64,000 nt of DNA from Desulfitobacterium metallireducens DSM 15288 (GCF_000231405.2 NZ_CP007032.1:558001-622000); one strand, 5' to 3'. Positions 20,475-63,988 are shown, counted from the stretch's first letter. The notes: a model not told the origin generated them from the letters alone. Numbers and translations: made by a program.

Positions 20475-20545
20475 TAACACGGCATTCACGAAACTGGCTA
20501 AGATGAAGGTAGTATGGTGCTTCGTGAATACCCAGAACGTTAAAT
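20475..20545 (+). repeat. attC-like site 1 (split by IS copy 1)
   Basis: The right part begins TAACACGGCATTCACG and ends with GTTAAAT at 20539-20545. The left box piece ACCTAA lies at 18871-18876 across the IS. Rejoined, ACCTAAC matches RYYYAAC fully and GTTAAAT matches GTTRRRY. Inside, GGCATTCACGAA pairs with TTCGTGAATACCC around AAGATGAAGGTAGTATGG. The same site sequence follows IS copy 2. Confidence 0.85.
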
Positions 20546-20562
20546 GAAATTGGTTGCAAAGA

Positions 20563-20581
20563 CCGCACCGTCCTGGCGCGG
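20563..20581 (+). repeat. Cassette 5'-end hairpin
   Basis: CCGCACC, loop GTCCT, GGCGCGG: a GC-rich stem 18 bases after the attC box, at the start of the DUF6236 cassette. Equivalent hairpins occur at 24082, 61606, 63211 and, inverted, 58281. Confidence 0.7.
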
Positions 20582-20638
20582 AAAATAAAAGGGAGTACAC
20601 TGGTAGGGCATGAAGGCTTAAAAATTGGAGGTTTATAG

Positions 20639-21703
20639 ATGAATAAATTATTGTATTTCCCTTATATCTCTATACCAAATTCACAATGGTTAATCCAAAC
20701 GTTATTATATTGGGATGAAGTAGCATCTATAGTGCCATTTGAATATGCACGTAGGACAAACTGCCTTGATTCTCATATGCAATTATTAATTAGAGAAGAA
20801 TTGGTAAAGCAGATCTTTCCTGAACAATATATCTTTAGATTTAATGATTTTACATACAACTTTCTTAAATACGTTGATACTGATCCAGTGATTCGAAGTA
20901 TTTCTGACTTAGGGAAAAGGGGTTTGATTGGTAAAAATAAATTATTAATAAAAACTGAGAAGGTCCATATGGCAAAACTGAGTGATATCGGTTATGAATT
21001 GGTTGAAAGAGGTCTAGCTAAAGATAAAGGTAGATGGTTTGAAATTGAAAGTTATACTGCTAAATCATTTATGACGTATTTAGCATTTCTACTAGGCCAA
21101 GAAACCGGCTTTGTACCATCTACAGATACATATAATGGATTTTCAAATTTATTAACTCATAAAGAAAATAGTAGGAAAGCTACAATATCTAATAGAGTTA
21201 GAGATGAACTAAGAGCGCAAATTCTTAATAAAATCTTGCCTGTGCCAAGATATATTGAGAATTTTGCGGATATTCTAAGATTTAAGCATAAAAATCATGA
21301 TGAGTTAGAAAGATATAGAAATTTTATTGAGTCTTTTATTATTGATATTGATGCAGTCAGCGACGAATTAAAGAAAGAGAGAACCAATAGATTTATAGAA
21401 GAAGCAGAAGATAAGATCAGATATTTGAAAGAACAAATGAGCTTTTTTGGTGGAATAAAAAATTTTGATTTCGTTACTCTATGCTCACTAAGTTCAACCA
21501 TATATCCAATTATATCTGGAATTGAAAATAGAAATACCTTTGAATTAATCGGAGCAGTTCCTGGTTTGCTTGGTGCGATATATTCAACAATACGAAGTAA
21601 TAATATTGATGAACTTAGACGTGAACCATTAGCTTATGCTGCTTTATCAGGTTCAAGAAATACATTTTTCAGAAGAAGAGCTCAGGGCTATGAAGAATTC
21701 TAG
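20639..21703 (+). CDS. DUF6236-like protein (cassette 2)
   Basis: 354 residues. The N-terminus LLYFPYISIPNSQWLIQTLLYWDEVASIVP is the characteristic opening of DUF6236 proteins, as I recall the family; function unknown. A charged helical middle follows (about 215-270), then a hydrophobic patch near 285-325 (FVTLCSLSSTIYPIISGI, LIGAVPGLLGAIYS) that may be membrane-associated. A TTGGAGG box precedes the ATG. It has no operon partner: it is the only gene of its cassette, bounded by GTTAAAT at 20539 and the site at 21749. The stop is followed directly by the cassette 3'-end hairpin. Confidence 0.7.
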   Translation: MNKLLYFPYISIPNSQWLIQTLLYWDEVASIVPFEYARRTNCLDSHMQLLIREELVKQIFPEQYIFRFNDFTYNFLKYVDTDPVIRSISDLGKRGLIGKNKLLIKTEKVHMAKLSDIGYELVERGLAKDKGRWFEIESYTAKSFMTYLAFLLGQETGFVPSTDTYNGFSNLLTHKENSRKATISNRVRDELRAQILNKILPVPRYIENFADILRFKHKNHDELERYRNFIESFIIDIDAVSDELKKERTNRFIEEAEDKIRYLKEQMSFFGGIKNFDFVTLCSLSSTIYPIISGIENRNTFELIGAVPGLLGAIYSTIRSNNIDELRREPLAYAALSGSRNTFFRRRAQGYEEF

Positions 21704-21704
21704 G

Positions 21705-21722
21705 GTCGCCGTCCATGGCGAC
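21705..21722 (+). repeat. Cassette 3'-end hairpin
   Basis: GTCGCC, loop GTCCAT, GGCGAC, two bases after the DUF6236 stop codon. It is followed by TCTGAATATGGGGGCGACC, an element repeated with changes before other attC sites. Confidence 0.75.
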
Positions 21723-21748
21723 TTCTGAATATGGGGGCGACCAACTTC

Positions 21749-21822
21749 ACTAAACAAGGCGTTCCCGTGACTTTGTCAATATGAATGTGATATGACACTA
21801 CGGGAAAGCCCGCACGTTAGAC
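21749..21822 (+). repeat. attC-like site 2
   Basis: ACTAAAC (one change from RYYYAAC) to GTTAGAC (full GTTRRRY match), 74 bp. GGCGTTCCCGT pairs with ACGGGAAAGCC, with CAATATGAATGTGATATG between. The flank before it, GCGACCAACTTCA, is complementary to the start of its own cassette at 20539-20557. Confidence 0.85.
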
Positions 21823-21854
21823 GTAATTAGTAATGAAAGCGATGAAGCGGAATT

Positions 21855-23093
21855 ATGTATAAGAATAATGCACTTTATTATTTATACTCCTTAAAGGAAA
21901 TAGGTTTGATGGACGAGTATTCTGATAAACACTTTATTATACAAGCCATGAATGGTAATTTGGATTTCTTTGAAAGATATCCATATGTGGCTTCTAAGAG
22001 TTTAAATATAACCAATGGACTAGACTTAGCAAATACTTTCTTAATGAATTTCTCCGCTAAGCTATTCAATCTTTCACATAAGTTTTCTAAGAGTGATATC
22101 GATGAGTTCGTAAGAAATCAGCTAGCTGCTGGTAAAGATAAGTATTCTGAGGAGCAATTTTTTAGAGCAGTTTCAGAAGTAAATGTTTTAAGCTATTTGG
22201 TCAATTTTACTGGTAGACTAAGGTCAGCATCTTATGAATATAGACTTACTAAGAATGGTCCAAATCCTGAGGCAAGAATCAACTTGAACGATGATATTAT
22301 TATTGATGTTGAGGTGAAAACTCCAGGATTTGAGAAAAGTCATAGCTATCCAAAATCTAAACTTGGAATGATAAAACCCAATGTGGTTCTGGATGATAAT
22401 GGGAAGAAAAAGGTTGGGCAATATTGTAAGAATGCTTCTCTAGAATTGGTAATGCCGAGGGTGCTTAAATTAAAGGATTTTATTGATAGTGCAGCAGAAA
22501 AATTCGAAAAACCTTCGAGTCCTAAACATTTCAACTTATTATTTATAAACTGGACCTATACAGATTTTCCTGAGTGTGAGCTAAACGAACCAATTAGTTT
22601 ATTAGTTAATCCAATTAGCGGAATTCTTTATAATGACGCTGCGTTAAATTTTGTTAAAACGTTCGATAAAGAAAATAAAATTTATAAAAAACTCGAACGA
22701 AGAAATCTGGATAAAATTTCAGCTATAATCTTATATCGGGATACTATTGATTCAATTTTAAGCGGCGATTTTAGATATCATTTTGGTCATAATTCCTTTA
22801 AATTATTACTTAATGAAAAGAATAATAATGATTTAGACTTTTACTTATTATGTAAAACATTACATATGAACCCTTATAATACGGGGAGCACACTTCAGTG
22901 GGTTCCAGCAGATTATGAAATGAAAAGTAATGTTCCAAGAGAAGTAGCGGAAAATGCAGTAAGATTTGTCGATGATGTTCTATGGCAATCGGATGAATTA
23001 CTATCAGGAGTATTTCCAGATCCTAATCTAATTAGGAAATTAAGAAAGCAAATTTATTTGCAAGAAGATCCGTATTATGTTAAGAAAGTTTAA
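21855..23093 (+). CDS. Candidate PD-(D/E)xK-type nuclease, unknown family (cassette 3)
   Basis: 412 residues. Around residues 130-160 the pattern NPEARINLNDDIIIDVEVKTPG places Asp, then Glu-x-Lys in a beta strand, as in restriction-endonuclease-fold active sites; this is the only functional clue. An N-terminal helical part and a C-terminal alpha-beta part of 250 residues have no recognised domain. The ATG has a weak site (AAGCGGAATT). Only gene of its cassette; the start GTTAGACGTAATTA matches its end AATTAACTGCGTCGAAC by complementarity. A defence role is a reasonable guess given the cassette setting, nothing more. Confidence 0.55.
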   Translation: MYKNNALYYLYSLKEIGLMDEYSDKHFIIQAMNGNLDFFERYPYVASKSLNITNGLDLANTFLMNFSAKLFNLSHKFSKSDIDEFVRNQLAAGKDKYSEEQFFRAVSEVNVLSYLVNFTGRLRSASYEYRLTKNGPNPEARINLNDDIIIDVEVKTPGFEKSHSYPKSKLGMIKPNVVLDDNGKKKVGQYCKNASLELVMPRVLKLKDFIDSAAEKFEKPSSPKHFNLLFINWTYTDFPECELNEPISLLVNPISGILYNDAALNFVKTFDKENKIYKKLERRNLDKISAIILYRDTIDSILSGDFRYHFGHNSFKLLLNEKNNNDLDFYLLCKTLHMNPYNTGSTLQWVPADYEMKSNVPREVAENAVRFVDDVLWQSDELLSGVFPDPNLIRKLRKQIYLQEDPYYVKKV

Positions 23094-23130
23094 AAGATAA
23101 TGTTAGATGAATAGTTTTAGAATTAACTGC

Positions 23131-23206
23131 GTCGAACAGCGTATTCCCGAAATCTGAGTTGATATGATTGTATTAACCAGACTTCGGAATACGTGGGGCG
23201 TTAGCT
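23131..23206 (+). repeat. attC-like site 3
   Basis: GTCGAAC to GTTAGCT, 76 bp, one mismatch in each box. GCGTATTCCCGAA pairs with TTCGGAATACG; the centre holds GATATGATTGTATTAACC, a variant of the shared central block. Confidence 0.75.
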
Positions 23207-23240
23207 GACACGCAAAGAATTCTTTATAGGAGGGCATTTT

Positions 23241-23963
23241 GTGAAAAAGTTAGCGGATAGTTCAATTGTAGAAATTGAAGAAAGATCTGAGGGGATTGTC
23301 TTACCTGTTTCGGTAGATACCGTTTGTCCGTACTGTTTAAAGCAGGTGAATTTTAGTATAAAATGGCCCAACTACATAGATACAGAAGTCGCATACGCTC
23401 GCTCTAGGTGTTCGGGATGTGGCGAAAATCCAAAATTTATGCTTTTCGATCTACCTATGAGAGACGGGAATGATGATGAAATTGGCGATTTATATATTTC
23501 ACCAGCTCCAGATATTAAGGATGTTAATAAAGATATTTCCCGTATTGAAGAGTTTTCAGTAGGATTAAAAAAAGCATATTCATCAGCAATTAACGTTTTT
23601 AATATAGGCGAGTGGACAGCTACAACAGTTTTATGCAGAAGATTATTAGAAGGGATTATGAAAAAATTACTTCCTGATGAGGAGCAGAATAAATCACTAG
23701 CAAAACAACTGGAAATCCTCCCGAAATATGTTGAGTTGCAAAAGCCGATAATTTTGCTTGGAGATGCAATCAGAAAAGGGGGTAACTTAGGAGCGCATTT
23801 TGACTTGGAAAAAGAACCTGATAAGTTGACCGCAACTTTAATGTTAGAGTTATTAGACGACTTAATTGACTATTTATTTATTCTTCCGCAGAGAATTAAT
23901 GAATTAAGACAACAGATTGAAAAAATGCCTAATAGCGAGCAAGCTGATTCTCATTTAGCTTAA
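23241..23963 (+). CDS. DUF4145 domain protein with zinc ribbon (cassette 4)
   Basis: 240 residues from GTG 23241 behind an AGGAGGG box. Two Cys pairs (VCPYCLKQ near residue 29, CSGCGENP near 58) form a zinc-ribbon-like N-terminus. The C-terminal 110 residues carry the DUF4145 pattern: TATTVLCRRLLEGIMKKLLPD, then LGDAIRKGGNLGAHFDLEKEPD and LELLDDLIDYLFILP. DUF4145 domains are found fused to or next to restriction and defence proteins; their biochemical role is not known. Single gene in its cassette. Confidence 0.78.
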   Translation: MKKLADSSIVEIEERSEGIVLPVSVDTVCPYCLKQVNFSIKWPNYIDTEVAYARSRCSGCGENPKFMLFDLPMRDGNDDEIGDLYISPAPDIKDVNKDISRIEEFSVGLKKAYSSAINVFNIGEWTATTVLCRRLLEGIMKKLLPDEEQNKSLAKQLEILPKYVELQKPIILLGDAIRKGGNLGAHFDLEKEPDKLTATLMLELLDDLIDYLFILPQRINELRQQIEKMPNSEQADSHLA

Positions 23964-24064
23964 ATAAGCCACACAAGATTTGCAATTTAAAGTCGGTTTT
24001 TGGAGAGGCAAGTCTTGTGCCAGCCCTGAAGGGATGAACACGACGGAAATCCAAAACGTTAAAT
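23960..24064 (+). repeat. attC-like site 4, atypical or rearranged
   Basis: The right box GTTAAAT at 24058-24064 and the bases after it match site 1 closely. The left side is unusual: ACACAAGATTTG pairs with CAAGTCTTGTG, and a second small palindrome GGAT...ATCC follows. The first box is unclear (GCTTAAA at the gene stop is one option). Probably two sites fused by deletion. Confidence 0.5.
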
Positions 24065-24081
24065 AAAATTGGTCGTAAGGG

Positions 24082-24100
24082 CCGCGCCGTTCTGGCGCGG
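24082..24100 (+). repeat. Cassette 5'-end hairpin
   Basis: CCGCGCC, loop GTTCT, GGCGCGG, a perfect 7-bp stem 17 bases after the right box of site 4. Same position and loop type as at 20563. Confidence 0.75.
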
Positions 24101-24139
24101 ATTGTGCATGCTGTATTTGAAAAAAATTACATAAGTTAA

Positions 24140-24454
24140 AGTCGACTAGTCAATTTACAATTTGGCAAATTTAAATCAAATAAGAAAGATGGTGCTTTTT
24201 CTGTGGAAGGAAAAGATTTTGCTAAAAAATTAGTAAAAAACTTAGTGAAGGGGACTCTACCTACTTCAATTTCCGCGATTTTAGAAGCTATTGAGTAATG
24301 TGAATCGGATGAAGAACTTAAACAGAAGTTTGATCAATTAAAAAAATATGCTGAAGAGTATGCAAGTGGGTTGCAGAAAGCTTTACCCCTGATTCCAATA
24401 TCTGTAGAAACTGAATATGCTACTATCGTAGTTCTCAATTTTCTTTTAAACTAA
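24140..24454 (+). pseudogene. Broken hypothetical gene (cassette 5)
   Basis: A frame with coding character (FSVEGKDFAKKLVKNLVKGT, ISAILEAIE) runs into TAA at 24296-24298 and then continues in the same frame (SDEELKQKFDQLKKYAEEYA, ending at TAA 24452). There is no start codon with a binding site; the frame opens after a stop at 24137. It reads like a small helical protein with an internal nonsense codon and a lost start. Two very short genes is the alternative. The 71-residue frame after it may be a companion. Confidence 0.5.
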
Positions 24455-24468
24455 AGTATATAAATTTT

Positions 24469-24684
24469 TTGTCAAATCCAGAACAATTGAAAACAGAACT
24501 GGGAGAATTAATAGAGGAATCAGAAATTATGGGAGAATATGAAGTCTATTCTGATTGTATTATATTACAATCTCCAGATGATGAAATATCTAAACAAGAA
24601 TGGCAAGAAAACGACATAAAATTATTTAGAGATATCTTATATTCAGAATATGAGATAAAAATAAAATCAATTCTGTATATATAG
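24469..24684 (+). CDS. 71-residue acidic hypothetical protein
   Basis: TTG 24469 start with no convincing ribosome binding site. Acidic, with KTELGELIEESEIMGEYEVY near the front and EWQENDIKLFRDILYSEYE later. No family recognised. It begins 15 bases after the broken gene and shares its cassette, so it could be an antitoxin-like or immunity partner, or the tail of the same decayed gene after a frameshift. Low confidence in its being translated as drawn. Confidence 0.4.
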   Translation: MSNPEQLKTELGELIEESEIMGEYEVYSDCIILQSPDDEISKQEWQENDIKLFRDILYSEYEIKIKSILYI

Positions 24685-24712
24685 TGGTAGTAAACAGCAT
24701 TAAATCATTTCA

Positions 24713-24736
24713 GGAGTCGCCGTTCATGGCGACTCC
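24713..24736 (+). repeat. Cassette 3'-end hairpin
   Basis: GGAGTCGCC, loop GTTCAT, GGCGACTCC, followed by AAATATGGGGGCGACC, nearly the same as at 21705-21740. Confidence 0.75.
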
Positions 24737-24760
24737 TAAATATGGGGGCGACCAACTTCA

Positions 24761-24836
24761 TTTAAACAGAGTATTCCCGAGACTTAGCATAGATCCAAGT
24801 GGTTAGGACGTATTGGGAATCCCCGAAATGTTATAC
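24761..24836 (+). repeat. attC-like site 5
   Basis: TTTAAAC to GTTATAC, 76 bp. GTATTCCC pairs with GGGAAT-C; the centre is CTTAGCATAGATCCAAGTGG. The flank CGACCAACTTCATTTAAAC is complementary to its own cassette start GTTAAATAAAATTGGTCG at 24058. Confidence 0.8.
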
Positions 24837-25028
24837 GCCATGCCCCAGCTAGGGCTAAAAATACAAGCCACTATTGCCAAAGTAGATAGGCTTCGGATTT
24901 GGGAAGTTTCTTGTAACAACACATAAAGATCTATGTATAACGTTACCCCTTTATGCAAGGAGGGACGAGGTTGTCCCGAATCATTTTGGATTTAATTCGA
25001 AAACTTGCTTGCCTTGAGGTGCATTGGA

Positions 25029-25547
25029 ATGAAAGAAGATAGGTCTATATTAAGCATAAGAGAAATCGAAATAACAGATGCAAAGGAGTTATTAGAACTA
25101 TGCTTAAAGCTTGATAAAGAGACCCAATTTATGATGTTAGAAGAAGGCGAAAGACAACAAGCTGTTGACAAACAACAAGATCAAATTAATCGAGTATTGT
25201 CTACTCATAATCAAATAATTTTCATTGCTACGAATGGTGACCAAATTGTTGGTTATCTAGGAGCATACGGTGGAGAATATAGACGGAACGCGCATAGTGC
25301 ATATATTGTTATCGGAATTCTTAAAGATTATATTGGGCAAGGAATTGGAACCAGGTTATTCCAGACGTTGGAACAATGGGCGTATAAATGTGGAATCCAT
25401 CGTTTAGAGTTGACCGTAATGGCTCACAATCTACAGGCTTTTGCGTTATACAAGAAAGTCGGTTTTACGATTGAGGGGATAAAAAAACATTCGATTCATA
25501 TTGATGGTAGTTATGTAGATGAGTATTATATGGTAAAACTGTTGTAG
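25029..25547 (+). CDS. GNAT N-acetyltransferase (cassette 6)
   Basis: About 172 residues from ATG 25029, with GAGGTG seven bases before; a TTG 24 bases earlier is possible. The acetyl-CoA pocket motif GQGIGTRLFQTLEQWA follows the strand SAYIVIGILKDYI, and the tail has the usual AHNLQAFALYKKVGFTIEG. This is the RimI/PhnO-like acetyltransferase fold, often with small-molecule or antibiotic substrates. Only gene of its cassette. Acetyltransferases are common integron cargo. The substrate is unknown. Confidence 0.88.
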   Translation: MKEDRSILSIREIEITDAKELLELCLKLDKETQFMMLEEGERQQAVDKQQDQINRVLSTHNQIIFIATNGDQIVGYLGAYGGEYRRNAHSAYIVIGILKDYIGQGIGTRLFQTLEQWAYKCGIHRLELTVMAHNLQAFALYKKVGFTIEGIKKHSIHIDGSYVDEYYMVKLL

Positions 25548-25590
25548 TTAAAAAGGGCTGATTAAGTCTAAATGCAAGCTGGGGGACGGT

Positions 25591-25665
25591 GTCTAACAAG
25601 GTGTTTTCGTAACGTTACCGATATGAATGTAGTATGGCACTACGGGACCCCCCGGGACGTTATAC
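25591..25665 (+). repeat. attC-like site 6
   Basis: GTCTAAC (full RYYYAAC match) to GTTATAC, 75 bp. Between them are CGATATGAATGTAGTATGGC and a short inverted pair TCGTAAC/CTACGGG. The flank AGCTGGGGGACGGT before it is complementary to AGCTAGGG/CGCCATGCCCC at its own cassette start (24830-24854). Confidence 0.85.
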
Positions 25666-25703
25666 GCCATCGCACTAGGAGTCTAGAGAAATGGGGGATT
25701 CAA

Positions 25704-26336
25704 TTGGATAAAACGGAGAGGACCATTGAAACATACAACTTGCATGCTGATTCTTATGAAAAGAAGTTTATGGATTTCGCTAGTTATGCAAAGAGAATAA
25801 AGGCTTTTGGCGATATTTTACCGCCGGGGGCAAGTGTACTCGATGTAGGGTGTGGCCCAGGGAATGTTGCCAAGCAATTACTTGAATCTAATCAAGAATT
25901 TAAGATTTTAGGAATTGATCTTTCTAGTGAGATGATTAATCACGCAAGAGCAAATGTCGTTTCCCCTCAAGTAGAGTTTAGAGTAGCAGATATTAGGAAT
26001 ATGGGATTGGAGGGAAATACATACGACGCAGTAATTGCGTCGTTTTGTTTACCACACCTAACAAACGAGGAAGCTGAGAAATTAATTCAAGATATCAGTA
26101 AAGTATTACATGAAGGTGGACTATTGTATTTAAGTTGCATGGAAGGCACTAAATCGGGCTTTGAAACGACTAGTTTCAGTTCGAATGATTCTATATTCTT
26201 TAATTATTATTCGGAAGAGTTTATACAGAAGGTATTACGTAAGAATGGTTTAAAGATTACAGAACTTCAACGTGATGTATACCTTGAAAGTGATGGAAGT
26301 AAAACTATCGATATTTTCTTTATCGCTAAGAAGTAG
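25704..26336 (+). CDS. Class I SAM-dependent methyltransferase (cassette 7)
   Basis: About 210 residues from TTG 25704, behind GGGGGA; the frame is open further up but that part overlaps attC site 6. The SAM-binding motif VLDVGCGPGNVAKQLL lies near residue 49, motif II-like ILGIDLSSEMINHAR near 74, FRVADIRNMGL near 100 and YDAVIASFCLPHLTNEEA near 118. This is a UbiE/COQ5-type small-molecule methyltransferase. Single gene of its cassette; the last complete cassette of array 1. Substrate unknown. Confidence 0.87.
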   Translation: MDKTERTIETYNLHADSYEKKFMDFASYAKRIKAFGDILPPGASVLDVGCGPGNVAKQLLESNQEFKILGIDLSSEMINHARANVVSPQVEFRVADIRNMGLEGNTYDAVIASFCLPHLTNEEAEKLIQDISKVLHEGGLLYLSCMEGTKSGFETTSFSSNDSIFFNYYSEEFIQKVLRKNGLKITELQRDVYLESDGSKTIDIFFIAKK

Positions 26337-26354
26337 TTCAGAGTAGGCAACGGT

Positions 26355-26373
26355 GTATAATAAAATGTTCCCG
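26355..26373 (+). repeat. attC-like half-site 7
   Basis: GTATAAT then AAAATGTTCCCG resembles the left arm of sites 2, 6 and 12. The preceding GGCAACGGT is complementary to the start of this cassette. The right arm is missing: a GTGCG sequence begins at 26374. Confidence 0.6.
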
Positions 26374-26555
26374 GTGCGTCCTAGCAGGTCACACTTTCTA
26401 GCGGGGGAAGATCCAGCCAGGGTAAGGTCTAGCCAACCGCCCTGTATCGGGTCTTGGAAGTATTGTAGTACTGGAATGATTTAAGCGTAGACAGAAAATC
26501 AGCAAGGTAGAATTGACGGGATGGAAGCCAGCAGTGAATGTATATTGAGCCTAGC
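26374..26555 (+). mobile_element. Probable remnant of a group II intron 5' end
   Basis: The sequence starts GTGCGTCC, the standard group II 5' end, and continues with stretches such as GGGTAAGGTCTAGCCAACCG and AAGCGTAGACAGAAAATC that look like domain I of class C introns. No reverse transcriptase or domain V follows, so it is truncated; the end point is approximate. It cuts attC half-site 7 in the left arm. Class C introns are known to use attC sites as targets. The assignment is by eye and memory only. Confidence 0.5.
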
Positions 26556-26573
26556 CTAAGCGCTAATAAATTA

Positions 26574-31555: not shown

Positions 31556-31557
31556 CA

Positions 31558-39228: not shown

Positions 39229-41131
39229 GTGCGCCACGCATGGCGATTAACTAGACGGTGAAAGTCCGTTATGGGGGTATGTAGCGACCAACCATTAGCT
39301 TAAGGCAAGGGTGTCCATCGTGAGGTGGAATCTGAAGGAAGCCGGCGGCAAAGCTCCGACCCGAGGAACACGAACAGTATCAGGCGCAAAACGTGGGGTA
39401 AGGCTGCCATTCAAGCTGAAGCCCAAAAGCTACACGGATACGTTAGCGTAAATGCTGCGGGTACATGGAACGAAAGTGAATCGTCTTACCGTGGGAGGCC
39501 TCACGGACAGGTGGAAACAGAGTAAGAAACCTGGTTGAAACAAGATTTATCGTGAGGAGTCAGCTGAAGCCATAGTACAGAGGTGGTCTAGACACCGACG
39601 GAAGGGTTGAACCAAAGGAGGTGTGGGTCAATGAAAGTTACTGAAAGTGGTAATTCAAAACACAGACAACTTCGATTCGAAGACTATCTGCAAAGGGTAT
39701 CTGCGGAACAGAGAGAGTATGCGGAAGTGTGCGCGCCACCTAAGATGACTGAAACCGACAACACCAACACGAACAAGCAGACAGAAGGCTTGCTTAAGCA
39801 AATTCTTAGCGTCGAAAACCTAAACCGAGCTTACAAACAGGTGAAGAGAAATAAAGGCGCAGGTGGAATCGATGGTATGCAGGTGGATGAACTTCTACCC
39901 TTCCTGAAAGAGCACAAGAATGAACTTTTGCAATCCCTCTGGGACGGTAAATACCGTCCAAAACCCGTACGGAGGGTAGAGATACCCAAAGAGAACGGAA
40001 AGACTAGAAAACTGGGAATACCAACAGTCGTAGACCGGTTAATCCAACAAGCGATTACTCAAGTCCTGAGCCCCATCTTTGAAGAGCAGTTCTCAAACAA
40101 CAGTTTTGGATTCCGACCGAACCGCAGTGCTCATGATGCACTGTTGAAATGCCAGGGTCATATTACAGAAGGATACAAATATGTAGTAGACATGGACTTA
40201 GAGAAATACTTTGATACGGTCAACCAGAGCAAACTGATTCAAATTCTGTCTGAGACAATAAAAGACGGGCGAGTCATCTCACTCATCCACAAATTCCTAA
40301 GAGCAGGAGTTATGGTGGATGGTTTGTTTGAGGAAAGCCCCGAGGGCGTACCGCAAGGCGGACCCCTTAGTCCCTTACTTGGAAACATTATGCTCAATGA
40401 ATGTGACCACGAGTTGGAAAAGCGAGGGCATAGATTTGTGCGTTATGCAGACGATATGATGATTTTTTGCAAAAGCAAGAAAGCAGCAAAGCGTGCGCTT
40501 GACCATATACTTCCGTTCATCGAAGGGAAGTTATTTCTCAAGGTAAACAGGGAGAAAACTAAGATCTCGCACGTAAACTATGTAAAGTATTTGGGATATA
40601 GCTTTTACATCTACAGAGGATTTGGGCGACTGAGAATCCATCCTAAAAGCATCCAGAAACTCAAAGATAAAATCCGAGAAGTGACTGGACGGAGCAACGG
40701 GATGGGAATCGAAGAACGGAGAACAAAACTCAACCAGATAGTGCGAGGCTGGACGAACTACTTTAAACTGGCCGACGCTAGAAATCTACTTAAGACACTG
40801 GATGAGTGGCTAAGAAGTCGCATACGGATGGTTACCTGGAAGCGATGGAAGAGAACCCGAACGCGATTTGAAAACCTCAAGAAAGTAGGTATACAAGAGG
40901 AACAAGCGTGGATGTGGGCAAACACAAGAAAAGGCTATTGGCGTACTGCCCATAGCCCGATTTTGACAAAAGCCTTATCCAATAAGCGTTTCGAACGGAT
41001 TGGATATCTCAGTTTTAGTGAATGTTATTCTGCGAAGTAACGCGTAAACTTTGGAAGCGCCGTATACCGAACGGTACGTACGGTGCTGTGGGAGGTCGGC
41101 TGACCAAATAATGGTCAGCCTCCTACCCGAT
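39229..41131 (+). mobile_element. Complete group II intron
   Basis: A 1.9-kb ribozyme-type retroelement. The 5' end is GTGCGCCACG at 39229, followed by conserved domain I features (GTGAAAGTCCG, AAGGGTGTCC, GTGAGGTGGAATCTGAAGG). One maturase gene lies in domain IV. Domain V is at about 41056-41088, with the AGC triad, CCGTAT and ACGTACGG. Domain VI follows, and the intron ends CCTACCCGAT at 41131. It sits five bases after the T tract of a terminator hairpin and three bases before the stop codon of the DUF11 gene on the other strand, so it damages no gene. Insertion next to terminators is a habit of class C introns; I do not fix the class. Confidence 0.92.
39631..41040 (+). CDS. ltrA: Group II intron reverse transcriptase/maturase
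   Basis: About 469 residues from ATG 39631, which has AAAGGAGG nine bases before; an upstream TTG is in frame but unsupported. RT blocks: IDGMQVDEL, YRPKPVRRVEIPKENGKTRKLGIPTV, the FGFRPNRSAHDAL block, GVPQGGPLSPLLGNIML, and the catalytic YADD in FVRYADDMMIFCKS. The maturase (X) domain follows, with GWTNYFKLADARNLLKTLDEWLRSRIRM. There is no HNH endonuclease at the C-terminus, so it uses an endonuclease-free target route. Intact, so the intron is probably mobile. Confidence 0.95.
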   Translation: MKVTESGNSKHRQLRFEDYLQRVSAEQREYAEVCAPPKMTETDNTNTNKQTEGLLKQILSVENLNRAYKQVKRNKGAGGIDGMQVDELLPFLKEHKNELLQSLWDGKYRPKPVRRVEIPKENGKTRKLGIPTVVDRLIQQAITQVLSPIFEEQFSNNSFGFRPNRSAHDALLKCQGHITEGYKYVVDMDLEKYFDTVNQSKLIQILSETIKDGRVISLIHKFLRAGVMVDGLFEESPEGVPQGGPLSPLLGNIMLNECDHELEKRGHRFVRYADDMMIFCKSKKAAKRALDHILPFIEGKLFLKVNREKTKISHVNYVKYLGYSFYIYRGFGRLRIHPKSIQKLKDKIREVTGRSNGMGIEERRTKLNQIVRGWTNYFKLADARNLLKTLDEWLRSRIRMVTWKRWKRTRTRFENLKKVGIQEEQAWMWANTRKGYWRTAHSPILTKALSNKRFERIGYLSFSECYSAK

Positions 41132-51940: not shown

Positions 51941-51949
51941 CTTGTTACA

Positions 51950-52055
51950 GAGTATTGCTCACCTACGCTGGGATTATCCAGATCAGGTTCAAAGGGTCTT
52001 AGACTTCATCAGGTCTAAATCTCAGCCGGCCTTTTCCAGCTCCCCTGCCTAACTA
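51950..52055 (-). promoter_or_regulatory. TPP riboswitch of the thiD-thiM-thiE operon
   Basis: On the minus strand the conserved aptamer parts appear in order: GGGGAGC, GGCTGAGA, GACCCTTTGAACCTGATC, TGGATAATCCCAGCGTAGG. These are the Thi-box signatures that bind the pyrimidine and pyrophosphate of TPP. High TPP should turn the operon off. Confidence 0.96.
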
Positions 52056-52237
52056 TGAGGTTAGATATTGGTTAAAAAATAGCACGTAATCCGTTAAAAG
52101 TCAAGGTAAGGACTGGAAGCTGGAAAGATCGATAACAGGGAAAAAGATAGGGACATTCGGATGAGAACTTGAACGTTTCCTATAATCGTGCTAATCTTTA
52201 CTTATTATGAAGTAGTTCTGTAAGAAGAATGTAACTA

Positions 52238-52332
52238 AATAGAGGGAGCTTAAGGAATTGAGCTGAGAGGGCAGTTGAGACCACTGCCGACCGTGATACC
52301 TGATCTGGATAATGCCAGCGGAGGGACAGTAA
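52238..52332 (+). promoter_or_regulatory. TPP riboswitch of the luxE-luxC-SDR-thiN operon
   Basis: Signatures in order: AGGGAGCTT, TTGAGCTGAGAGG, a variable stem GGCAGT/ACTGCC, GTGATACCTGATCTGGATAA and TGCCAGCGGAGGGACAG. It is a plus-strand aptamer divergent from the first, about 180 bases away, and a terminator follows. Confidence 0.95.
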
Positions 52333-52343
52333 TATTGGAGTAA

Positions 52344-57488: not shown

Positions 57489-57618
57489 CCCATTTTACAG
57501 GTCATTCATACTCTTATGCGCATTATATGAATATTTGTGCATTAAATTTACTGTAGATTATGCTTAATTTCTACGTTCCTTTTGTGTAGGGTATCTTCTT
57601 GAATATGCATAAAGATAT

Positions 57619-58170: not shown

Positions 58171-58280
58171 AATACCTCCATTTTTCATTTTATTCCTGCT
58201 TGTTCTCTGACGTTTAGTTTATAAATAATCGGTAGTTCACATTTTTCTACAAGAGCGCACTATCAATCACACACCGTAAT

Positions 58281-58298
58281 CCGCGAATGGACGCGCGG
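58281..58298 (-). repeat. Cassette 5'-end hairpin, minus orientation
   Basis: On the plus strand CCGCG and CGCGG bracket the loop containing AATGGACG (minus GTCCATT). It lies after the GTTATCC box of the inverted site 8, as in the plus-strand cassettes. Confidence 0.65.
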
Positions 58299-58315
58299 TT
58301 CTTGCGTACGGTATC

Positions 58316-58391
58316 GGATAACGTCCCGAAGGTTCCCGCTGCATCTTAACCGCATTCATCTGTTCTAAGTGGCGGGAACGTGTTGTTATCC
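58316..58391 (-). repeat. attC-like site 8, inverted
   Basis: On the minus strand GGATAAC to GTTATCC, 76 bp. The core is GTTCCCGCCACTTAGAACAG, then ATGAATGCGGTTAAG and GCAGCGGGAAC, nearly identical to site 10 on the plus strand. Here both outer flanks are complementary to each other (GTACG-CATCGGATAAC and GTTATCCGATACCGTAC), as expected for a circular cassette or for a site that was never split. Confidence 0.85.
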
Positions 58392-58416
58392 GATGCCGTA
58401 CGTACCCAGACTCAGA

Positions 58417-58436
58417 GGCCGCCATGGACGGCGGCC
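58417..58436 (-). repeat. Cassette 3'-end hairpin, minus orientation
   Basis: GGCCGCC and GGCGGCC around ATGGAC (minus GTCCAT), the same 20 bases as at 62385-62404 in opposite orientation. Confidence 0.8.
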
Positions 58437-58482
58437 CCTTGAGCTTCGTCCCATTTAGTTCGCTATAAAAGAATGATGTGAA

Positions 58483-58953
58483 TTACTTGTAAACCATTTC
58501 GAATTCCTCACACACTACTAACATTTCATCACTAAATTCCACTTTAATCTCTTCTAACTGCCGATTAAAAGCACTTATATGAACCTCTCGCCAAAATTTT
58601 AGTGACTTGTCACCTTCCCCTTCAATTTTAGCAAATTCCTCAGTTACCTCGTTGAACGGCATCAAGTTCACCTTTTGGGTTTCAATAACACACTGGGCAA
58701 TACTTTGCCAATCTGTAATAATACTAAGGTCTCCAGCTTTAGGTAATGTTTCCCCCTCTATTTCATAAAAATAATACAATCCAGTAGTAGCTCTTTTAAT
58801 GCCATTTTTTACTAATTCTGACAAATCATTGGCGCCTTTTTCATTGTCACAAAAATGCCATGAGGTATATTTTTTATCTGTACCAATAATATCCTCGCCA
58901 ATAAAATTTATATAATTTACCCACATTTCTTGTATCGATTTATGTTCTTGCAT
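58483..58953 (-). CDS. ASCH domain protein (inverted cassette)
   Basis: About 156 residues from ATG 58953, behind GGGGAGTC. It has the ASCH layout: YTSWHFCDNEKGANDLSELVKNGIKRATTGLYYFYEIEGETLPKAGDLSIITDWQ, then CVIETQKVNLMPFNEVTEEFAKIEGEGDKSLKFWREVH. ASCH domains are RNA-binding, related to PUA, and some are amidohydrolases for modified cytidine. The gene is on the minus strand, followed by attC site 8 in matching orientation, so it is a cassette lying opposite to the rest of array 2. Its start end is not recognisable. Confidence 0.8.
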   Translation of the reverse strand: MQEHKSIQEMWVNYINFIGEDIIGTDKKYTSWHFCDNEKGANDLSELVKNGIKRATTGLYYFYEIEGETLPKAGDLSIITDWQSIAQCVIETQKVNLMPFNEVTEEFAKIEGEGDKSLKFWREVHISAFNRQLEEIKVEFSDEMLVVCEEFEMVYK

Positions 58954-59254
58954 CACGTTCCGACTCCCCTATATATAGTTTTGGTAGTTCGCTTTATCTT
59001 ACAAATGCGTCTCAGTATAAGAATAACCGGAAGTTTAAAAATTTTTCTCTTATTCGGTTTAGAATACAAATATAGTAACAAATAATGGCTGAAAATCGTG
59101 ATTAGATTATCGGGCAGTTTAACATAGTTAATTATCGGACCCAGAAGGATATTTATCCCAGTAGGACGAAGACATATAAAGTAAAAATTTGCGAACCTTG
59201 TTCGGTAATACCTCCGTATTTGGAGATTATACGAACCTGGTTCATTAATAAAAC
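58954..59254. other. Left flank of the plus-strand part of array 2
   Basis: 300 bases without a gene. Near its right end, GAACC-GTTCG-TAAT and ATTA-CGAAC-GGTTC (about 59196-59241) form an imperfect stem-loop with CTCC/GGAG in the centre, just before the GTTATAT box at 59255. It could be an attI or a diverged attC. Confidence 0.4.
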
Positions 59255-59347
59255 GTTATATGACAGAATATGCAACCTATGAATGTGTAAATAGGGCCTT
59301 AATTTAACTATCATGGAAAATCTTTTTGTCGTTTGGGAGTGTTAAAC

Positions 59348-59887
59348 ATGGCTCAAATAGATTCAATAGAAACACAAAGATTAGTGTTAAGAGAGTTATC
59401 GTCGGAAGATCTTGAATCTGTTCATAGAGTAAAGGCTAATAAGGAAGTGGTGAAGTTTCTCACCTGGGGACCAAACAATCTAGCCGCAACACGAAATTCT
59501 CTCGACAAACAAATTGGAATGCAGGAAGATAACGATAGAAAGATATTTGTGCTGGGCATTGTTCTGAAGGAGTCAAACCAACTCATAGGAAATTGTCTTT
59601 TGACTCAGAACGATTTTAGAACCGCAGAGTTCGGATATTTCATTCACCCGGATTATTGGCAGGTTGGTTACGGGACTGAAACTGCAAAAGCACTCATCGG
59701 ATTCGGGTTTAACACGTTAAAATTACATCGGCTAATCGCTACCTGTGATCCCGAAAACGTAGCTTCTATCAAGGTTCTTAAAAAATCCGGCATGAGGTTG
59801 GAAGGACATTTTATTAAAGCTCAATATGTAAAAGGGTTATGGCGGGATAACATGTTATTTGCGATGTTGGTTGAAGAGTATATTTAA
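59348..59887 (+). CDS. RimJ/RimL-type GNAT acetyltransferase (cassette)
   Basis: About 179 residues from ATG 59348, eight bases behind GGGAG. The opening IETQRLVLRELSSEDLESVHRV and the core AEFGYFIHPDYWQVGYGTETAKALIGFGFNTLKLHRLIATCDPENVASIKVLKKSGMRLEGHF are typical of the RimJ/RimL family, which acetylates protein N-termini or small molecules. The Q-V-G-Y-G-T loop binds acetyl-CoA. Only gene of its cassette. Its attC is split by IS copy 2. Confidence 0.9.
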   Translation: MAQIDSIETQRLVLRELSSEDLESVHRVKANKEVVKFLTWGPNNLAATRNSLDKQIGMQEDNDRKIFVLGIVLKESNQLIGNCLLTQNDFRTAEFGYFIHPDYWQVGYGTETAKALIGFGFNTLKLHRLIATCDPENVASIKVLKKSGMRLEGHFIKAQYVKGLWRDNMLFAMLVEEYI

Positions 59888-59917
59888 GTATGCGTCTGGG
59901 GGCATATTCCATCATAT

Positions 59918-61517
59918 AAACCAGCTAATTGCTGTCAAGTAAAAGTTTCTCTAAAGTAATTGACAAGAAAAATAGGTATAGCAAAGCTGGCCTACGTGTT
60001 GTAAGTTTGTAAAAAGGGTATGTAAATAAAAGGGATATCTAAGTCTATAGAGAATTGCTAATTAGAGATTGAAAAAGGCTGCTGTGAGGATAAAATCCCA
60101 TAGATCATCCTGAGCATTTTGTTAGCCGTGGCAATAATAGCTACCTTAACCGGTTTACCTTCATTAATTTTCCGAAGGTAAAAGTCTCTAAGAATTGGAT
60201 TTAAGGGACCGCTAGCCCTGTTACTAATCCCCGCTACAGTGGCTTGATAAATTGCTTTTCTAAGATAGGGTGACCCTCTCTTAGAGATCTTGTTATTACT
60301 CGATTTAAACTTTCCCGATTCAAATACAGATGGATCAATGCCTGAAAAGGCGACCAACTGTTTTGCACTGGGGAATCTTTTAATATCACCAATTTCAGCA
60401 AGAATGGTGGTGGCTGTAGCCTCTCCTACGCCAGGGATAGAACGGAGAAGAGGATAATCAGAGGAGAAGTTTGCCCAAAAAACCATTTGAGCCCGTATGT
60501 CAGTCAGAATGTTTTGTTGGGATAGGAGGAGTTCAATGTACATCCTTAAAACCCGTATATTTGACTGTTGGGCCCGGTTAAAAGGCAAACTTTCCTTAGC
60601 AGCCAATATGAGTTCATCGGTCTTTAATTCGTTCCAGTCTCTTGATTTCTTTGCAGGCTTAAGACACTCGATAATTTGCTCCCGTTCTGCGGATAAAATT
60701 GCTTTTGGCGATGGAAAGGTAGAAAGAACTCGTAAAGCAGTAGGACTACATAAGTGAGCAAATACGGATTCAAACTTAGGAAAAACAAGATCTAAAACGG
60801 AGCGAAACTTAAGTTGGGTTTCAGTATAAAGTGTATTAAAGCTATCATATTGCCGACAGAGGTTCTGCAATTCCAAGATGTGATCCTCAACAGGTTTGGC
60901 TTCAATAAATTCATTCAAATAATAAACCTGAGCAATCCGATTCGCATCAATGGGGTCAGTCTTAACCTTGCGGACGGATTTCTTTTTTTCAGCATGAGTT
61001 TGGAGAGGATTAAGAACGATCACTTTATAACCCGCATCTTGAAAGTAAGCGGTAATAGGCTTGGAATAGTTACCCGTTGCTTCCATAACTACATGAGGGC
61101 GTTTACCAGTTTCACTTTCAAGTTTAATAAGCTTATCTGTTAACCTGGACATATCACTCGGAGAATGCAAGAAAGGAAAAGGTTTGGAAACAGACTCTTG
61201 ATATCCTTTAAACAAAGCAGCTACACTCTTAGACTTAGAAATATCAATACTTAACACAGGAACATCAATCATGAAAAACCTCCTCTTTTACCGGGTTCCA
61301 TCTTTAACAACCACCTTTAGGTTCGCGTTGTGATACGGGCTCAAGGCCCAACCAGCTCAATCAAAGTATTGGTGCCAAAGAGGGTGTGAACACTTTATGC
61401 GACGGGATCTAGGTCCCAACACGGCATACGTTCTTTACCCAGTTTTTTTTAAGTATAAAGGAAAATAAAAGAAAAATGGTCCATACCCAGATTGAACTGG
61501 TTATGAACCTATAATAC
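59918..61517 (-). mobile_element. IS110-family (IS1111-type) element, copy 2, inside an attC site
   Basis: The same 1.6-kb element as at 18875-20474, exactly 41,043 bases further on, same orientation, no difference noticed by eye. The left flank is CATCATATAA and the right flank AACACGGCATTCACG, so it entered the first box of an attC site just as copy 1 did. Boundaries are uncertain by about five bases. Confidence 0.87.
60058..61272 (-). CDS. IS110-family DEDD transposase, copy 2
   Basis: 404 residues, identical in protein sequence to the product of 19015-20229. Catalytic residues are as described there (SIDISKSKS, VVMEATGNYS, TDPIDANRIA; later GSPYLRKAIYQATVAG). Sequence identity shows recent transposition or gene conversion. 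Direct-repeat copies 41 kb apart could recombine and delete the spore and thiamine block between them. Confidence 0.95.
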   Translation of the reverse strand: MIDVPVLSIDISKSKSVAALFKGYQESVSKPFPFLHSPSDMSRLTDKLIKLESETGKRPHVVMEATGNYSKPITAYFQDAGYKVIVLNPLQTHAEKKKSVRKVKTDPIDANRIAQVYYLNEFIEAKPVEDHILELQNLCRQYDSFNTLYTETQLKFRSVLDLVFPKFESVFAHLCSPTALRVLSTFPSPKAILSAEREQIIECLKPAKKSRDWNELKTDELILAAKESLPFNRAQQSNIRVLRMYIELLLSQQNILTDIRAQMVFWANFSSDYPLLRSIPGVGEATATTILAEIGDIKRFPSAKQLVAFSGIDPSVFESGKFKSSNNKISKRGSPYLRKAIYQATVAGISNRASGPLNPILRDFYLRKINEGKPVKVAIIATANKMLRMIYGILSSQQPFSISN

Positions 61518-61588
61518 GAACACGGCATTCACGAAACTTGTCAAGATGAAAGTAGTATGACGCTTCGTGAATACCCAGAACGTTATAC
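61518..61588 (+). repeat. attC-like site 9 (split by IS copy 2)
   Basis: GAACACGGCATTCACGAAAC, then CAAGATGAAAGTAGTATGAC, then GCTTCGTGAATACCC to GTTATAC at 61582-61588. Nearly the same as site 1. The left box piece ATATAA is at about 59915-59920. Confidence 0.85.
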
Positions 61589-61605
61589 GAAACCGTACGC
61601 GAAGA

Positions 61606-61623
61606 CCGCGCGTCCATGCGCGG
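61606..61623 (+). repeat. Cassette 5'-end hairpin followed by T run
   Basis: CCGCGC, loop GTCCAT, GCGCGG, then ATTTTTT. Besides its place in the cassette pattern it could terminate transcription coming from the previous cassette. Confidence 0.75.
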
Positions 61624-61705
61624 ATTTTTTTGAGCAAGGCGTGTAGTCGTTTGTGTCAGGTTTATATTGCTGTCGAAGGAAGATTAAAGAGGGGTCTTTT
61701 ATATC

Positions 61706-62314
61706 GTGGAGCGGAAGACAGTATTTGTCATTGGCGATAGCGTTTCAATACACTATGGCCCATTTTTAAAGGAAATGATAAAAAGTAAATATAATTTCGG
61801 CCGGACAAGTGAAATAGTTGATGGAGATTTGGATAAACCTGTTGGTGCTAATGCCGGTGATTCTAAGATGGTCCTCGAATATTTAAGAGACGAATATAAC
61901 AAGGGAACAACGTACAACATCTTGCTTTTGAATTGCGGCCTACATGATATAAGAATAGACAGGGTTACAAAACAGATTCAAGTCAAGAAATGGGAATATG
62001 AGAAAAAATTAAATCTAATATCAGACCTTGCTTTAAAGATGTCTGAGCGAGTAATGTGGATTACAACTACACCTGTACTGGATGTTATACATAATCGTAG
62101 AAATGAAGGCTTTTTACGGTATAACGAGGATGTAATTCTCTATAATAGCATAGCAGAGAATATAATGGGCAAGTACCAAATATCATGTGTTGACCTTTAT
62201 ACATTTACAAATAGTTTAGGAGATGATATTTATTCTGATCACGTACATTTTAAAGAATCAGTACGGGCACTACAGGGGGCATTCATTGCAGGACACTTAC
62301 TTTGCAACCGATGA
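61706..62314 (+). CDS. SGNH-fold hydrolase (cassette)
   Basis: 202 residues from GTG 61706. Block I VFVIGDSVSIHYGPFLKEM at residue 6, block III LLLNCGLHDIRID near 70 (Gly/His-Asp instead of Gly-x-Asn), and the terminal DIYSDHVHFKESVRALQG with Asp-x-x-His near 180. No signal peptide, so it acts in the cytoplasm, unlike the secreted SGNH protein at 28484. The cassette ends are complementary: GTTATACGAAACCGTACGC and GCGTACGGCTTCGTATAAT, 17 of 19. Substrate unknown. Confidence 0.8.
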   Translation: MERKTVFVIGDSVSIHYGPFLKEMIKSKYNFGRTSEIVDGDLDKPVGANAGDSKMVLEYLRDEYNKGTTYNILLLNCGLHDIRIDRVTKQIQVKKWEYEKKLNLISDLALKMSERVMWITTTPVLDVIHNRRNEGFLRYNEDVILYNSIAENIMGKYQISCVDLYTFTNSLGDDIYSDHVHFKESVRALQGAFIAGHLLCNR

Positions 62315-62384
62315 TTATTCTTTCTATATTAACTTTTAAGATCTAATTTAAGTACTTAAGGTTTGATGGAGGTACAAGGGAAGG

Positions 62385-62404
62385 GGCCGCCGTCCATGGC
62401 GGCC
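62385..62404 (+). repeat. Cassette 3'-end hairpin
   Basis: GGCCGCC, loop GTCCAT, GGCGGCC. Followed by TCTGGCTTCGCGGGGCGTACGG, leading into attC site 10. Confidence 0.8.
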
Positions 62405-62430
62405 TCTGGCTTCGCGGGGCGTACGGCTTC

Positions 62431-62506
62431 GTATAATAGCCGGTTCCCGCCACTTAGAATAGATGAATGCGGTTAAGGCGCAGCGGGAACCTGCGGGACG
62501 TTATAA
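62431..62506 (+). repeat. attC-like site 10
   Basis: GTATAAT to GTTATAA, 76 bp. GGTTCCCGC pairs with GCGGGAACC; the middle CACTTAGAATAGATGAATGC is shared with inverted site 8. Confidence 0.85.
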
Positions 62507-62562
62507 GAAACCGCTAAGTCTTTTTATTTATTAATTATGCAGGTTTTGTGGGAGGATCAGTT

Positions 62563-63048
62563 TTGGATTTAGTAGCACCATCAATCTCAAACATTAGGCG
62601 TGCTTTACCAGAGGAGGCTGTTTTGCTCACGGAAATTGCATTTCGCTCCAAAGCTCACTGGGGCTATGACTTGTCTTTTATGGAGCAGTGCCGAAATGAC
62701 TTAACAATATTCTCAGACAATATTACTAATAATTTGGTTTTTGTAATTGAGGCAGATGGGGATATTGTGGGTTTCTATGAACTACGTGGAAAGGTTCCTG
62801 AAGCTAACTTGTATTGGCTATTCATGGATCCGAAAGTAATAGGATGTGGATATGGAAAAAGGTTATGGTTACATGCGGCTGAAATCTCCAAAGGCCTCGG
62901 GTTCGAGTACATGTTGATCAAGAGCGATCCATATGCGGAAGGATTTTATTTAAGAATGGGAGCCAAGAGAATAGGAAAACTTCCTTCGACCGCAATACAA
63001 GGACTGATGTTGCCTTTGCTATGTTATCAGTTATTAGTAAAGGGCTAA
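62563..63048 (+). CDS. GNAT acetyltransferase (cassette)
   Basis: About 161 residues from TTG 62563, six bases after GGAGGA; GTG 62548 in frame is less likely because it would put the binding site inside the gene. The GNAT core is NLYWLFMDPKVIGCGYGKRLWLHAAEISKGLGFEYMLIKSDPYAEGFYLRMGAKRIGK, with the acetyl-CoA loop G-C-G-Y-G-K. Only gene of its cassette; ends GTTATAAGAAACCGC and GCGGCTTCTTATAAAC are complementary. Confidence 0.87.
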   Translation: MDLVAPSISNIRRALPEEAVLLTEIAFRSKAHWGYDLSFMEQCRNDLTIFSDNITNNLVFVIEADGDIVGFYELRGKVPEANLYWLFMDPKVIGCGYGKRLWLHAAEISKGLGFEYMLIKSDPYAEGFYLRMGAKRIGKLPSTAIQGLMLPLLCYQLLVKG

Positions 63049-63118
63049 TTGTTTCTAATTTAAGTTGGCAACAGTGTAATGGTTAAGTGTTTGCATGTTG
63101 GTCTTTTCCGCGGCTTCT

Positions 63119-63194
63119 TATAAACAGCGTATTGCCGACACTTAGAAAAGATGCATGTGGTTAGGTCGCATCGGCAATACGCAAGACGTTATAT
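63119..63194 (+). repeat. attC-like site 11
   Basis: TATAAAC to GTTATAT, 76 bp. GCGTATTGCCGA pairs with TCGGCAATACGC; the centre is CACTTAGAAAAGATGCATGT. Confidence 0.85.
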
Positions 63195-63210
63195 AAAATC
63201 GAGCGCAAGG

Positions 63211-63230
63211 CCGCCCCGTCCACGGGGCGG
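63211..63230 (+). repeat. Cassette 5'-end hairpin
   Basis: CCGCCCC and GGGGCGG bracket GTCCAC, 16 bases after the box of site 11. Confidence 0.75.
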
Positions 63231-63293
63231 AAGGTTCGATTATGGCAAACTTTATAGGCAATTTTATTTTATAAGAAGGGTACTAGATAATAC

Positions 63294-63893
63294 ATGAATT
63301 CAAAAGATATAATTAGATTTTTAAATATAGCTGAGAAATTGAAATGTGAATTACGCCATTCTTGGACATCTACGATGCGGCAAGAGAGTGTAGCAGAACA
63401 TAGTTGGAGACTTTGCATTTTTTCTTGGTTGATAAAAGACCAATTACAAGATCAATATGATATGGACAAAGTTATGAAAATGTGTTTGTTTCATGATTTG
63501 GGTGAAGCAATCACAAGTGATATACCAAGTTTTTGTAAAAATGAAGAAGATACCAGAAAAGAAGAGGCTGCAGTAAATCAAATAATCAGTATGCTTGATA
63601 ATGATTTGCGTTCTGAACTAGATAAGTTATTTATTGAAATGAAAGAACAACAGAGTAAGGAAGCTAGATTATTCAAAGCACTTGATAAATTAGAAGCGGT
63701 GATTCAGCATAACGAATCTCCGATTGAAACATGGATACCATTAGAATTCGAATTAAATAAAACATATGCAAATGAGGAAGTAAGAGGTATTGCCTTGTTG
63801 GAAGGCTTACGAGAAGTAGTAAGGCAAGATACCATAAAAAAGTTAGGTGATAAAGAAAAAGAATTAAGGGCCCGACGTCCTGTCGGTCTCTGA
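63294..63893 (+). CDS. HD-domain phosphohydrolase, YfbR/HDDC2-like (cassette)
   Basis: 199 residues. Metal ligands: His in SVAEHSWRLCIFSW near 34, His-Asp in CLFHDLGEAITSDIPS near 65, and a late Asp in FKALDKLEAVIQHNES near 129. The layout matches YfbR/HDDC2 5'-nucleotidases that hydrolyse deoxynucleoside monophosphates; HD dNTP-depleting enzymes are also known in phage defence. The last residues (RARRPVGL) are coded by the cassette 3'-end hairpin, so the gene runs into the recombination region. The ATG has a weak site (AAGAAGGGTAC). Single gene of its cassette. Confidence 0.85.
   Translation: MNSKDIIRFLNIAEKLKCELRHSWTSTMRQESVAEHSWRLCIFSWLIKDQLQDQYDMDKVMKMCLFHDLGEAITSDIPSFCKNEEDTRKEEAAVNQIISMLDNDLRSELDKLFIEMKEQQSKEARLFKALDKLEAVIQHNESPIETWIPLEFELNKTYANEEVRGIALLEGLREVVRQDTIKKLGDKEKELRARRPVGL
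63872..63886 (+). repeat. Cassette 3'-end hairpin inside the HD gene
   Basis: CCGAC, loop GTCCT, GTCGG, overlapping the last codons of the HD gene, followed by TCTGAATCTGGGGGCGCGC, the element also found before sites 2 and 5. Confidence 0.7.
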
Positions 63894-63913
63894 ATCTGGG
63901 GGCGCGCGACTTT

Positions 63914-63988
63914 ACATAACAAGGTGTTCCCGTAACTTTGTCAATATGAATGTAGAATGACGCTACGGGAACACCCAAAACGTTATAA
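63914..63988 (+). repeat. attC-like site 12
   Basis: ACATAAC to GTTATAA, 75 bp. GTGTTCCCGTA pairs with TACGGGAACAC; the centre CAATATGAATGTAGAATGAC is nearly identical to site 2. The flank GCGCGACTTTACATAAC is complementary to this cassette's own start at 63188. Confidence 0.87.

Follow-up and report, generated by a model that had tools for sequence, protein, structure and literature searches.

Introduction

Classical attC sites, as found in class 1 integrons and in the Vibrio repeats (VCR), have AAC/GTT boundaries and an R''-L''-L'-R' palindrome, separate tandem single-ORF cassettes, and are recombined as their bottom strand. The two ends of most classical cassettes also pair with each other, over a length that reaches 9-11 nt (PMC2727003). 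The origin of integrons is generally ascribed to the acquisition, by a Xer-like recombinase, of the I2 helix, which recognizes extrahelical bases and blocks the second strand exchange; this helix is said to be required for capturing cassettes and to be present in no other protein (PMC7790495). In archaeal integrons, attI lies immediately downstream of the integrase gene, and the IntI-specific additional domain is reported to be present in their IntI (Ghaly 2022, PMC9668308). IntegronFinder 2.0 recorded one complete integron in Firmicutes, that of Limnochorda pilosa (PMC9024848).

Here we analyze a 64-kb stretch (558001-622000; hereafter the window) of the 3.18-Mb genome of Desulfitobacterium metallireducens DSM 15288, whose cassette sites, together with the enzyme found beside related arrays, apparently belong to an overlooked kind of integron. 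Among openly licensed PMC papers, we found none on integrons in Desulfosporosinus or Desulfitobacterium, and none reporting an integron integrase that lacks I2, although earlier reports elsewhere are possible.

Cassette runs in the window

An earlier note, made from the sequence alone, gave the interval 20539-63988 for the cassettes, but this is not one array. Cassettes lie in two runs, 20539-26361 and 59255-64000, separated by about 31 kb of other genes, and there is a single isolated site on the minus strand at 58322. The features are as follows (coordinates counted from the first letter of the window).

20483-20538, plus strand: attC core to the left of cassette 1; the right end of an IS110-type element stands in place of its R'' side
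20539-21755, plus: cassette 1, 354-aa ORF; arms 20539-20557 and 21737-21755, 15/19 paired
21756-21815, plus: attC core of cassette 1
21816-23137, plus: cassette 2, 412-aa ORF; arms 21816-21834 and 23119-23137, 13/19 paired
23138-23199, plus: attC core of cassette 2
23200-24057, plus: cassette 3, 240-aa ORF; degraded 3' site, own-end pairing unreadable
24058-24767, plus: cassette 4; arms 24058-24076 and 24748-24767, 16/19 paired with one gap
24768-24829, plus: attC core of cassette 4
24830-25597, plus: cassette 5; arms 24830-24848 and 25579-25597, 15/19 paired
25598-25658, plus: attC core of cassette 5
25659-26361, plus: cassette 6, methyltransferase-like by eye; arms 25659-25677 and 26343-26361, 11/19 paired
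From about 26390: interruption of the attC core of cassette 6
58303-58408, minus: lone attC with outer arms matching on both sides
59255-59921, plus: cassette 7, GNAT-like according to the earlier note; arms 59255-59273 and 59902-59921, 17/19 paired with one gap
60058-61272, minus: IS110-type transposase inside the attC of cassette 7
61582-62437, plus: cassette 8, SGNH-like according to the earlier note; arms 61582-61600 and 62419-62437, 17/19 paired
62438-62499, plus: attC core of cassette 8
62500-63125, plus: cassette 9, 166-aa ORF; arms 62500-62518 and 63107-63125, 15/19 paired with one gap
63126-63187, plus: attC core of cassette 9
63188-63920, plus: cassette 10, 199-aa ORF; arms 63188-63206 and 63902-63920, 16/19 paired
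63921-63981, plus: attC core of cassette 10; the following cassette starts at 63982

Several features by which integrons are recognized are present: tandem cassettes, mostly with a single ORF and in one orientation, have attC sites between them, and these sites combine AAC/GTT boundaries with folded inverted repeats in the classical R''-L''-L'-R' order.

Pairing between the two ends of a cassette

It had been proposed that the start of each cassette is complementary to its own end over about 13-20 bp. The end strings quoted in support are exact (located at 61582/62419, 59255/59902, and 24058/24749), and in each of the nine window cassettes whose two ends can be read, the start matches the reverse complement of its own end at 11-17 of 19 positions (15, 13, 16, 15, 11, 17, 17, 15, and 16 in order, three of them requiring a 1-nt gap in an AAAC box). 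For the cassette at 23200, degradation of the following site leaves no end to read. As a range, the proposed length holds; in detail, the stem comprises 19 positions, one of which is a fixed mismatch.

To place these cassettes in a larger set, a covariance model (R1) was built from an alignment of 11 linear sites, and it retrieved about 300 sites in loci of the window genome and of relatives belonging to its family and order. For every cassette, the start was matched against three kinds of reverse complement: that of the cassette's own end, those of other ends in its genome, and that of the end next to it in the array. Beyond the R box (positions 8-10 and 12-19; 225 unique cassettes), the own-end match averaged 7.62/11, versus 4.33/11 for non-own ends of the same genome and 4.75/11 for array-abutting ends. 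When ends were permuted within genomes, the mean was 4.68 ± 0.12 with a maximum of 5.04, and none of 2,000 permutations reached the observed value (z = 24.6). Shuffled pairings are therefore far less complementary than own pairings, and the own-end complementarity of these cassettes is confirmed as real.

Given this own-end specificity, the excised circle has the full long stem, whereas array junctions between unlike cassettes mostly lack it. The earlier statement that the stem would exist in the circle and not in the array is accordingly borne out as to own-end specificity, the array stem being mostly, rather than wholly, absent. A further suggestion, that the paired ends mark cassette identity, fares less well: a unique label is unlikely, as many cassettes share stems of the CCGTACGC or TATCGTGC kind.

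Anatomy of the outer stem

Outside the core, the stem is paired at positions 1-10, mismatched at 11, and paired and covarying at 12-19, with background values from position 20. At position 11, the start carries A in 98% of cassettes and the end carries C in 96%; both are found in 9/9 readable window cassettes. Mutual information between the two arms peaks at 1.2 bits at positions 13-14. Distinct stems account for 109 of 153 good stems. Some stem types, for example CCGTACGC, TATCGTGC, and TTTCCTGC, are found in many cassettes. Addition of 57 more cassettes (221 used) left the profile unchanged, with A.C at position 11 in 94%.

Strand bias and predicted folding

A top-strand A.C mismatch at position 11 corresponds to a T.G wobble on the bottom strand. 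In the outer stem, a clear wobble bias is confined to positions 6, 10, and 11. The inner stem leans the same way: within its first 13 bp, top-strand A.C (a wobble on the bottom strand) outnumbers G.T by 209 to 34, counts that shared ancestry inflates, and the bias is strongest at inner positions 12-15. Extrahelical bases, another feature by which attC sites are recognized, are missing from most inner stems over their first 11 bp: ungapped inner arms match at 9-11 of 11 positions in most of the new cores versus at most 8/11 in Vibrio, as expected from the extrahelical bases there. Classical arrays in Gammaproteobacteria were missed by an ungapped site scan, probably an effect of extrahelical bases interrupting the arms. 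Profiles of the new sites from that scan, in which the two strands are pooled, did not enter the position-11 analysis.

The bottom strand was folded with DNA parameters in its linear and circular contexts. The predicted energy was -25.7 kcal/mol for the circle versus -17.6 kcal/mol for the array, an advantage of about 8 kcal/mol, and the circle was predicted to be more stable for 87% of 179 sites. The bottom strand was predicted to fold better than the top in 92% of circles; in some, including the first worked example, the top-strand energy equals that of the bottom strand. Typically, the bottom strand is predicted to form a single hairpin in which 4 nt bulge out on one side at the crossover. 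The idea, raised at the outset, that a circle-only stem could favor one direction of recombination is energetically consistent with these predictions.

The integrase and an attI-like sequence

In several relatives, a tyrosine recombinase gene lies just upstream of the array and is co-oriented with it. The best PDB sequence match of this integrase is IntI4 (PDB 2A3V; E = 4e-40, split over both halves); its best NCBIfam family is NF040815, and three array-adjacent proteins score 207-218 bits against TIGR02249, under the curated cut-off of 265. From box I to HxLRH, the array-side integrases have 92 residues versus 133 in IntI. The I2 region falls within the 41 missing residues, so that the IntI-specific additional domain is absent; several of the proteins carry an N-terminal extension. 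Surveys that demand this domain would not call such arrays complete integrons. Between the integrase stop and the first cassette, several relatives share an attI-like conserved stretch, ACCCGCAAC...GCGGGTA...GACGTT, recognized by eye. In the window genome, the integrase directly upstream of the main array is a decayed pseudogene (L037, 11080-11470); the cassettes of the window may therefore have lost their mobility in this genome.

A 37-row tree recovers IntI as a single clade (100/100) embedded among I2-less proteins; a 100/100 branch splits the sampled Xer-like proteins from IntI and the I2-less integrases together. Owing to the small sampling, the midpoint root, the long IntI branch, and the weakness of several intervening forks, the order of events in this tree is suggestive only. 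A likeness to XerA, XerC, and XerD shows in the domain layout without I2 and in NF040815 as the best NCBIfam family; the sampled Xer-like proteins lie beyond that branch, and Xer recombinases are not known to serve cassette arrays.

Comparison with classical sites

The earlier note held that classical attC pairing beyond the hairpin core is limited to the 7-bp R boxes. This underestimates classical cassettes, given the published 9-11 nt cited above and roughly 10-12 in the Vibrio superintegron. In 37 cassettes of the latter, own-end pairing at positions 8-12 was 0.84, 0.76, 0.59, 0.51, and 0.41, reaching background from position 13; the A11 rule was absent, and the predicted circle-array energy difference was -4.1 kcal/mol. 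By eye, the ends of the class 1 cassette aadB pair over 12 nt. Pairing of own ends past the R box is thus shared with classical attC, whereas the present sites differ in pairing to position 19, in the invariant A.C at position 11, in the bottom-strand wobble bias, and in the lack of extrahelical bases from the first 11 inner bp. As far as compared, a comparison that is thin on the classical side (one Vibrio array), own-end pairing appears general; what appears particular to this lineage is the additional 8-bp block at positions 12-19, together with the position-11 wobble and the bias toward bottom-strand wobbles.

Proposed role of the paired ends

We consider it probable that the paired ends form the outer arm of an attC-type single-stranded site in an integron lineage with an I2-less integrase. 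The function that we infer for the outer stem rests on predicted energies and substitution patterns. In the excised circle, the bottom strand would fold into one long hairpin consisting of an outer stem of about 19 bp, a 4-5 nt one-sided bulge at the crossover, and an inner stem of 11-18 bp. One integrase arm would be made up of the first 11 outer pairs and the other of the first 11 inner pairs. T.G wobbles at the distal edge of each arm would distinguish the bottom from the top strand, replacing the extrahelical bases read by I2. Outer pairs 12-19, free in sequence, would add stability, so that the outer stem as a whole would stabilize the circle by the predicted 8 kcal/mol or so. As only the meeting of own ends completes the stem, the circle would favor the hairpin, and integration at attI would in turn be favored over excision. 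Passage through the circle stage would also keep the two ends of a cassette matched. Weighing against this reading, IntI is reported to need I2 for the capture of cassettes (PMC7790495), and the I2-less enzyme might act on double-stranded or cruciform sites instead.

A different role, which we regard as unlikely though worth weighing, is in excision. Here, while the bottom strand of the array is single-stranded, the own ends of a cassette would pair with each other over its 0.5-1.5 kb length, bringing the flanking attC hairpins together in cis before any circle exists and leading to precise excision of a single cassette. Own-end specificity fits this role equally well, and a stem closing the cassette would set both attC sites side by side. 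On the other hand, the stem is contiguous with attC and has the same wobble pattern, so that it behaves as part of the site, and closure of a loop of about 700 nt competes with local hairpins.

The complementarity could also be a functionless relic of cassette birth, inherited from long palindromes or copied end modules. The recurrence of the CCGTACGC, TATCGTGC, and TTTCCTGC stem types suits such an origin, as does one pair of homologous cassettes that differs by a switch of the whole stem at both ends. We nevertheless think a relic rather improbable in view of how the stems have changed. Across 18 homologous cassette pairs with bodies 60-97% identical, 39 stem changes were seen versus about 86 expected at the body rate, indicating that stems diverge less than gene bodies. 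Compensated double changes exceeded one-sided changes by 15 to 9, with six of the 15 constituting the one whole-stem switch; the pairs are non-independent, and only mostly paired stems were admitted, which favors compensated pairs. A relic would also sit poorly with the retention of A/C at position 11 in about 94% of cassettes, and with the lower own-end pairing in two genomes with the integrase decayed or not found (9.6/13, versus 11.9/13 with an intact array-side integrase), a contrast that missed sites may confound.

Pairing of the ends in a transcript, for example as terminators or mRNA protection, is very unlikely. Many cassettes do have a GC-rich hairpin a short way in from each end, and T runs follow some of these; however, pairing in a sense transcript predicts G.U wobbles, and the bias is the opposite, with A.C on the sense strand, while in an array transcript own ends would meet only across the whole gene. 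An artefact of shared end consensus, by which any start would match any end, is refuted by the shuffle test and by mutual information of up to 1.2 bits, even though recurring stem types do give some non-own pairs a full match.

Beyond the outer arm itself, we tentatively propose, as a reading that could easily prove wrong, a working and widespread I2-less lineage from which IntI is derived, with single-stranded capture that dispenses with extrahelical bases, strand choice by T.G wobbles, and a circle-only stem that licenses integration. If so, an I2-less integrase acting with sites free of extrahelical bases would represent a missing intermediate in the accepted origin of integrons, making that origin directly testable.

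Distribution of related arrays

Integrase homologues are present in Peptococcaceae, Acididesulfobacillus, and Paenibacillus, and in metagenome-assembled genomes assigned to Bacteroidota, Neomarinimicrobiota, Micrarchaeota, and others, although some of these assignments may be wrong. Outside the Desulfitobacteria group, a scan blind to position 11 detected cassette-like pairs beside eleven integrase matches (L093, L097, L101, L105, L109, L111, L112, L115, L116, L118, and L125), some of whose integrases were checked for I2. On the integrase strand, A versus C was found at position 11 in 11/11 of these loci. Pairs on the integrase strand in L104 and L106 lack A/C at this position and look like chance matches. 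With archaeal integrons, these systems share an attI-like sequence immediately downstream of the integrase gene and arrays in diverse phyla; the absence of the additional domain sets them apart.

Mobile elements and other features

IS110-type elements encoding a 404-aa transposase occupy attC at the R'' side, both in the window (19015-20229 and 60058-61272) and in L011 (8511-9725 and 15075-16289). Their right end, ATACGAAC/ATACTAAC, resembles R''. In other integrons, IS1111-attC elements are known. IS91-like elements occur at array starts (L011 4788-6796; L078 2542-3381; L081 and L090, downstream of attI), with an end such as GTTGAACAAAACCGCTACGCGGTGG sitting at the attI/attC crossover, and their own I2-less recombinases fall in the array-integrase group of the tree. 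The recombinase at G000:666.8 kb, considered as a candidate integrase, belongs to an IS91-like element with its own transposase and was set aside.

Rfam matches to group II introns were found in the window at 26390-26570, directly abutting the interrupted attC core of cassette 6, and at 39314-41131. The GC-rich hairpins just inside cassette ends have GTCC-type loops and occur at the 5' end in 83 of 224 cassettes, at the 3' end in 65, and at both in 58; window examples are at 20560-20582, 21703-21722, 61605-61625, and 62384-62405. Finally, a pair of TPP riboswitches lies in divergent orientation at 51943-52056 (minus strand) and 52232-52343 (plus strand) of the window, with about 180 bp between them.
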